From the NCBI GenBank assembly GCA_017479865.1, contig JAFVBS010000009.1:1-53395 (forward strand): a stretch of DNA of 53,395 bases. Reading direction: 5' to 3'. The stretch comes from Clostridia bacterium (GTDB lineage: Bacteria > Bacillota > Clostridia > TANB77 > CAG-508). Under the pieces are notes generated by a model, which saw only the letters and a program-made list of their open reading frames with translations, searched no databases and was not told where the DNA came from. Positions within the stretch are counted from its first letter, which is position 1, and each line of letters starts with the position of its first letter. The position numbers and the translations under genes are program-made. This document shows, piece by piece, positions 49,847-50,026 of this stretch.

Positions 49847-50026
49847 CAATAGTATCCATGATTTATTGCATTCCTCGGCTCATGAAACGTTCATTGGTCT
49901 TCTATGCTAAAACGTGCATGAGCCTCTCCAAGGAAACTTGCACCCTCATGCTACGTTTTAGCCAAGAATACCAATTCACTATTGTTTCAATCGCATTCGT
50001 CATTCCATAAATCATGGATGCTATTG
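49847..50026 (+). repeat. Palindromic repeat, copy A (180 bp)
   Basis: 20-bp terminal inverted repeats (49847-49866 / 50007-50026, one mismatch). A long central stem has GCTAAAACGT and GCATGAG on the left and CTCATGC and ACGTTTTAGC on the right, enclosing a loop with CTCTCCAAGGAAACTTGCA. The whole unit folds as one imperfect hairpin. No open reading frame of note. It lies between recJ and relA. Confidence 0.88.

Follow-up and report, generated by a model that had tools for sequence, protein, structure and literature searches.

The space between recJ and relA in a 53,395-nucleotide stretch of DNA from a Clostridia bacterium (the window, i.e., the whole stretch analysed here) holds an imperfect palindrome of about 180 bp, and a further copy lies elsewhere in the window on the other strand. 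The locus raises the question of why the two arms of such a repeat change together between copies, and what kind of element keeps them matched. The original prediction, made from the letters of the window alone, held that a fold is conserved either as RNA or as cruciform DNA, and that the element is MITE-like or a structured RNA family. The reading favoured here, which we consider rather probable, is a new family of small non-autonomous mobile DNA hairpins served by a putative enzyme in trans, with arms matched by copying and/or by selection for the hairpin. The copies in the window and their parts are the following.

49842..50031, plus strand: copy A (covariance-model match 49843-50031, 217 bits; fold z -9.3)
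49847..49866, plus strand: left arm of copy A, CAATAGTATCCATGATTTAT, pairing with 50007-50026 with one G-T pair, as read from the sequence
49868..49881, plus strand: conserved unpaired left block of copy A, GCATTCCTCGGCTC, near invariant in own-genome copies and well conserved across genera
49906..49915, plus strand: 5' side of the central stem of copy A, GCTAAAACGT, covarying between copies
49917..49953, plus strand: apical part of copy A, CATGAGCCTCTCC..GCACCCTCATGCTA, with the conserved GAGCCTCTC and CCCTC (sequence conservation)
49953..49962, plus strand: 3' side of the central stem of copy A, ACGTTTTAGC, covarying between copies
49990..50004, plus strand: conserved unpaired right block of copy A, ATCGCATTCGTCATT, conserved in own-genome copies and across genera, which served as a search pattern
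50007..50026, plus strand: right arm of copy A, ATAAATCATGGATGCTATTG, from the sequence
30104..30292, minus strand: copy B (covariance-model match, 217 bits; fold z -11.4)
30106..30129, minus strand: right arm of copy B, AATAAATCATCAATATTCTTAACT, from the sequence
30268..30291, minus strand: left arm of copy B, AGTTAAGAATATTGATGATTTATT, from the sequence, a perfect 24-bp match to its right arm
35322..35341, plus strand: remnant of copy C before an insertion (3' half of the element only)
35342..35430, plus strand: second, unrelated hairpin element inside copy C, with the 6-bp direct repeat AGAAAA on either side
35431..35491, plus strand: remnant of copy C after the insertion, with the right arm

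On re-reading, the predicted coordinates and sequences of the dispersed copies A and B were confirmed, and the element contains no open reading frame, as had been said. Copy A lies between the recJ stop at 49840 and the relA start at 50088. The terminal arms do differ between A and B while each is complemented at its own far end, and the matching extends further than first described (AGTTAAGAA in B versus CCAATAG in A, both with their complements at the opposite end of the same copy). The paired changes claimed for the central stem, with one pair lost, are also present, GCTAAAACGT/ACGTTTTAGC of A becoming GCCAAAACTT/AAGTTTTGTC in B, where T-A is replaced by C-G and G-C by T-A. Both copies are predicted to fold into one long hairpin (A, -71.5 kcal/mol, z -9.3; B, -65.1 kcal/mol, z -11.4; reached in 0 of 200 shuffles), and the 37-nt core match between them is beyond chance expectation. 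Copy C comprises the 3' half only and is split by an insertion of 89 bp with the 6-bp direct duplication AGAAAA on both sides. This inserted hairpin (35342-35430) has six matches in its own genome, three of them within copies of the 180-bp element, and is found also at C28:56471, C26:11818, C7:52490, C22:15743 and C23:53632 of that genome (G000); its stem differs between copies with the complements matched, and the 6-bp target duplication belongs to the window copy.

The 180-bp element occurs 13 times in full across the whole genome (999 kb in 28 contigs), and at least 10 further copies are shortened or interrupted. The cores are about 92% identical and the arms vary around GTCAAGAGTATYCATGATTTAT with matching complements, for instance CCAAGGGTATCC/GGATACCCTTGG in copy L006 and CACAAGTACACATG/CATGTGTACTTGTG in copy L007; RNAalifold found 60 pairs in the 13 full copies, 22 of them with two-sided changes. 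The anatomy was described from 99 copies. The element, an imperfect palindrome of about 180 bp, forms a single hairpin from end to end, in which the outer arms (20 to more than 50 bp) are of essentially free sequence, as are the inner stems, and the arms take all four Watson-Crick pair types at nearly every position. Fixed across genera are the block CATTCCTCGGCTC on the left and TCRCATTCGTCATT on the right, TTCTAA/TAAGAA flanking the middle stem, and GAGCCTCTC and CCCTC near the apex. These short conserved blocks sit in internal loops, while the stems vary. Shortened copies carry central deletions and keep arms that are intact and still matched, and in genus g48 one fixed mismatch and one gap in the arms persist in nearly all copies.

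Genome searches with covariance models revealed a family far larger than the copies known from the window. A model built from the own-genome copies (R1) matched 42 of 292 genomes of the window's family. A second one built from 36 copies of other genomes (R2) matched 132 of the 336 genomes that were drawn from the order. Of these, 131 belong to the window's family (own genome included) and one to another family, and 24 of 46 genera were positive; 6-8 candidates were scored per genome in these wide searches, so that copy numbers are lower bounds. When 391 genomes drawn from the class were searched, R2 gave no match beyond the order, and there was none to the element in phage and plasmid collections. 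Six viral-contig matches to the end motif were set aside, for the neighbouring element motifs were not shown there and they look like coding sequence. Among the end-motif matches listed, the named records are MAGs of uncultured Clostridia or Eubacteriales, with isolate names referring to chicken, wild mice and rabbit. No description of the element was found in the open-licence literature, where motif queries gave only chance matches, and the family is real and large and probably undescribed so far. Since none of the sampled congeners of the own species carries the element, it is likely that this species gained it horizontally or that it was lost repeatedly.

Several genomes show recent multi-copy spread. 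In G032, two copies with common private arms lie at two unrelated sites and their flanks diverge immediately outside, which means that the arms are part of the element and are carried along when it moves. The arms are constant across sites in G219 and G146 as well. An origin of the arms by inverted target duplication was ruled out by arms common to copies at different sites in G032, G219, G146 and G176. Full copies are also nested within the apical loop of another copy (L047; L127-L129 in G090; L126 in G210; L132 in G163; L056 in G273), and the nested units seem to move together, the composite recurring several times. By simple gene calls, only 2 of 103 copies overlap an ORF of at least 90 aa. 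Copies adjoin gene 3' ends more often than starts (51 vs 27, p 0.009; p 0.17 with one copy per genome), and 11-12 of the 13 own-genome copies are situated 0-59 nt past a stop codon, in both orientations.

Signs of the insertion event were looked for in two ways. No target duplication was detected, the best flanking direct repeat being 4.46 vs 4.15 in mismatched pairs, a comparison in which a short duplication could escape as the ends are not sharp in every genome. The concatenated flanks of five G146 copies, compared with three close relatives, gave no clean pre-insertion site, and the orthologous sites hold other palindromic repeats. The insertion step itself was thus not observed. At the sites L257 and L263 (G219 and G241), orthologous to L040, wholly different palindromic repeats of GAAGTGTGAGG type stand between the same genes; to judge from these different repeats at orthologous sites, the turnover of intergenic hairpins appears very fast. 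The G146 copies (L040, L109-L113) mostly have another hairpin, TGTAGGGGCG..stem..CGCCCGCTCTTCG, in the left flank, about 20 nt outside the element. Its stem differs between copies with a matching complement, and, starting with GTAG, it may belong to the GTAG-tagged repeats described earlier (PMC3733652).

An exact scan with one end motif showed no larger form among the matches listed. Single-end matches without a nearby partner arm, considered as a longer autonomous form, were rejected as contig edges, diverged copies or unrelated genes. No mobilising enzyme was found when RAYT linkage and the integron integrase were examined.

A plain MITE belonging to a DDE-type insertion sequence, in which the arms would be terminal inverted repeats drifting neutrally, would account for the size, the lack of an ORF, the dispersal, the inverted ends and the sharp ends in G032. 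However, terminal inverted repeats read by a transposase should be conserved, whereas here the arms are free and the loops fixed; no target duplication was detected; and neutral drift would break the pairing, leaving far more one-sided changes than are seen. We regard this explanation as unlikely. The predicted MITE-like character stands in the loose sense of a short (about 180 bp), non-coding, intergenic element with inverted ends and many dispersed copies, 13 of them full in the own genome, but its terminal inverted repeats are not conserved in sequence and no target-site duplication was detected.

The usual proof of a functional RNA is covariation, and in this family it is strong. It was measured in an alignment of 36 copies, fitted to the structure and covering different genomes and subfamilies; the arms are visible by eye and in free pairwise alignment as well. 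Paired cells made up 90.5% (56.3% in shuffled alignments), two-sided changes were present in 60 of 60 pairs, and the covariation score was 0.654, compared with 0.137 after shuffling and 0.10-0.12 when the structure was slid; by every measure, none of 500 shuffles attained the observed value. The covariation of arms and inner stems claimed from the window copies is hereby borne out across many genomes. Together with the conserved unpaired blocks, the folding z of about -10 and the many copies 0-60 nt past a stop codon, it would fit a structured RNA family, for example a 3' UTR stabiliser, a processing site or a regulatory RNA, with stems kept by compensatory mutation.

A function of the RNA on one strand, however, is expected to tolerate G-U pairs and not A-C pairs. 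Variable arm pairs of the element are 97.1% Watson-Crick with 0.5% G-U and 0.4% A-C, and the inner stems have 0.5% G-U and 0.8% A-C, whereas a control set of RNase P RNAs, taken from 22 of these same genomes, has 8.3% G-U and 0.3% A-C. As G-U is as rare as A-C, unlike in RNase P RNA, the pairing is strand-symmetric and kept at the DNA level; it is apparently that of a DNA palindrome and not of a one-strand RNA. Both G-U and A-C would likewise be missing from an RNA that has to work on both strands, which is the sole RNA reading left. Further points against an RNA family are the occurrence in both orientations relative to the upstream gene (about 8 sense and 4 antisense in the own genome), the lack of a match in Rfam in both gathering and E-value modes, the absence from the sampled congeners, and the lack of a terminator-like T run after the hairpin in an intrinsic-terminator test. 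An early impression of a single orientation, which had spoken for a one-strand RNA in the 3' UTR, was not upheld with all 13 copies, and that reading is weakened. A structured RNA is therefore quite improbable. The original prediction was right that the fold is kept and right to leave RNA and cruciform DNA open; the evidence now favours DNA, and its alternative of a structured RNA falls as far as one strand is concerned. Here, overwhelming covariation in a large natural family is apparently of DNA-level origin and can be recognised by the absent G-U pairs, while RNA searches relying on covariation only would call the element an RNA.

How the arms change was followed pairwise between copies of the same genome, in counts that are not independent. 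In the own genome, core divergence is 7.7%, while 21.6% of arm pairs are changed on both sides and 8.2% on one side; the corresponding values are 8.5%, 16.8% and 0% in G116 and 14.5%, 22.7% and 0% in G139. Two-sided arm differences in these three genomes thus run at about 1.5 to 3 times the core rate, one-sided ones being fewer. Arms are no faster than the core in G219, where both rates are 2.3%, and in G210, where no two-sided change was seen. Double changes comprise 253 transversions and 160 transitions. Transitions make up 64 of the 65 one-sided differences within the own genome, and transversions account for 80 of its 171 double changes. This pattern reflects either strong selection against transversion mismatches or a single copying step from one arm to the other that alters both sides.

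Template switching is documented to homogenise inverted repeats (PMC8604942, PMC7202029) and has been discussed for concertedly evolving palindromes (PMC6649704). The arms might accordingly be functionless and the element a passive relic, in which replication template switching homogenises any long imperfect palindrome. The spectrum of changes fits one-step copying, and central deletions leave the arms intact. Nevertheless, the internal loops are not homogenised and are conserved in sequence across genera, which counts against copying alone; the mismatch and gap in the g48 arms are stable, so that arm copying is not inevitable; and a passive relic is at odds with the recent multi-copy spread. 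This explanation is distinctly doubtful. As causes of matched arms in a mobile element, recurrent copying and selection on the DNA hairpin are not separable with the present data.

A palindrome of REP/REPIN type, mobilised by a RAYT (Y1 tyrosine) transposase, is very improbable. RAYT-like genes do occur in the own genome (two, about 260 aa) and in many relatives, and REPs are palindromic, extragenic and recognised as hairpins (PMC2817692, PMC8266576), but the tags GTAG and CGTC are found at 7 and 0 of 198 palindrome feet against a background of 2.6% and 0.7%, only 1 of 18 RAYT regions has a copy of the element within about 2 kb, the palindromes beside both own-genome RAYT genes are different ones (GGGACG.. 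and AGGGACACC..), and the element measures about 180 bp instead of 20-40 bp. The likeness to REP, BIME and REPIN sequences with RAYT lies in extragenic, hairpin-forming, multi-copy palindromes that are probably moved in trans and form mosaics with other palindromes (PMC2817692, PMC3116915, PMC3733652, PMC8266576). Those repeats have conserved stems, in contrast to the conserved loops and free arms of the present element, which has neither the GTAG/CGTC tag nor the RAYT linkage. The two own-genome RAYT-like genes (L324 1704-2739 and L325 1850-2777 in G000) each have inverted palindromes of their own on the flanks (GGGACGTTTG.. and TTTTAGGGACACCTTCC, of which the second is perfect over 31 bp).

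The favoured reading, a mobile DNA hairpin, would work as follows. The conserved loop blocks may be the recognition signal for a putative trans-acting recombinase or transposase that reads folded DNA, cruciform or single-stranded. During replication or transposition, one arm would be copied from the other, by template switching or by hairpin-primed repair, and selection for a stable DNA hairpin may help to keep the arms matched. Elements would persist mainly just past stop codons, where they presumably do least harm. A more specific version, in which the element moves via a folded single-stranded DNA intermediate, the loops are read by a putative recombinase and one arm is resynthesised from its partner at each move (hairpin-primed), is offered as a tentative possibility. 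If true, the free but always perfectly paired arms would reflect a transposition mechanism not described before.

Some known systems share parts of this pattern. Integron attC sites keep their structure and not their stem sequence, and are recognised as folded single-stranded DNA. The element resembles them in keeping structure rather than stem sequence, and differs in having no gene cassettes; the integron integrase was above the curated cut-off in 0 of 21 positive genomes. The ERIC (RU) elements of enterobacteria are not known to combine freely varying arms with conserved internal loops. These imperfect palindromes of 127 bp are similar in size, intergenic, ORF-less, palindromic over the whole element and MITE-like (PMC2759123). 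Arms that stay complementary while changing, with template switching as the proposed cause, are known from nematomorph mitochondrial palindromes (PMC6649704) and from template-switch homogenisation (PMC8604942). Those concerted inverted repeats are in coding sequence and not dispersed, whereas the present element adds conserved loops and spread to new sites. The family probably represents new, widespread small mobile palindromes with fixed internal loops and free arms in uncultured gut Clostridia; this combination points to recognition of folded DNA, and the arm-to-arm copying is directly testable.

Two further observations concern genes of the window. Within 10 kb, pyrG, an mtaB/miaB-like gene and relA each appear to be split by a single frameshift (43790-43830, 46980-47000 and 51440-51450), which reflects indel errors in the assembly or else genuine decay. 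A surface-protein-like gene (12061-14025) contains a dozen 69-nt repeats at 12849-13907, of a 23-aa leucine-rich type, and the long antisense ORF at 12936-13499 is a probable by-product.
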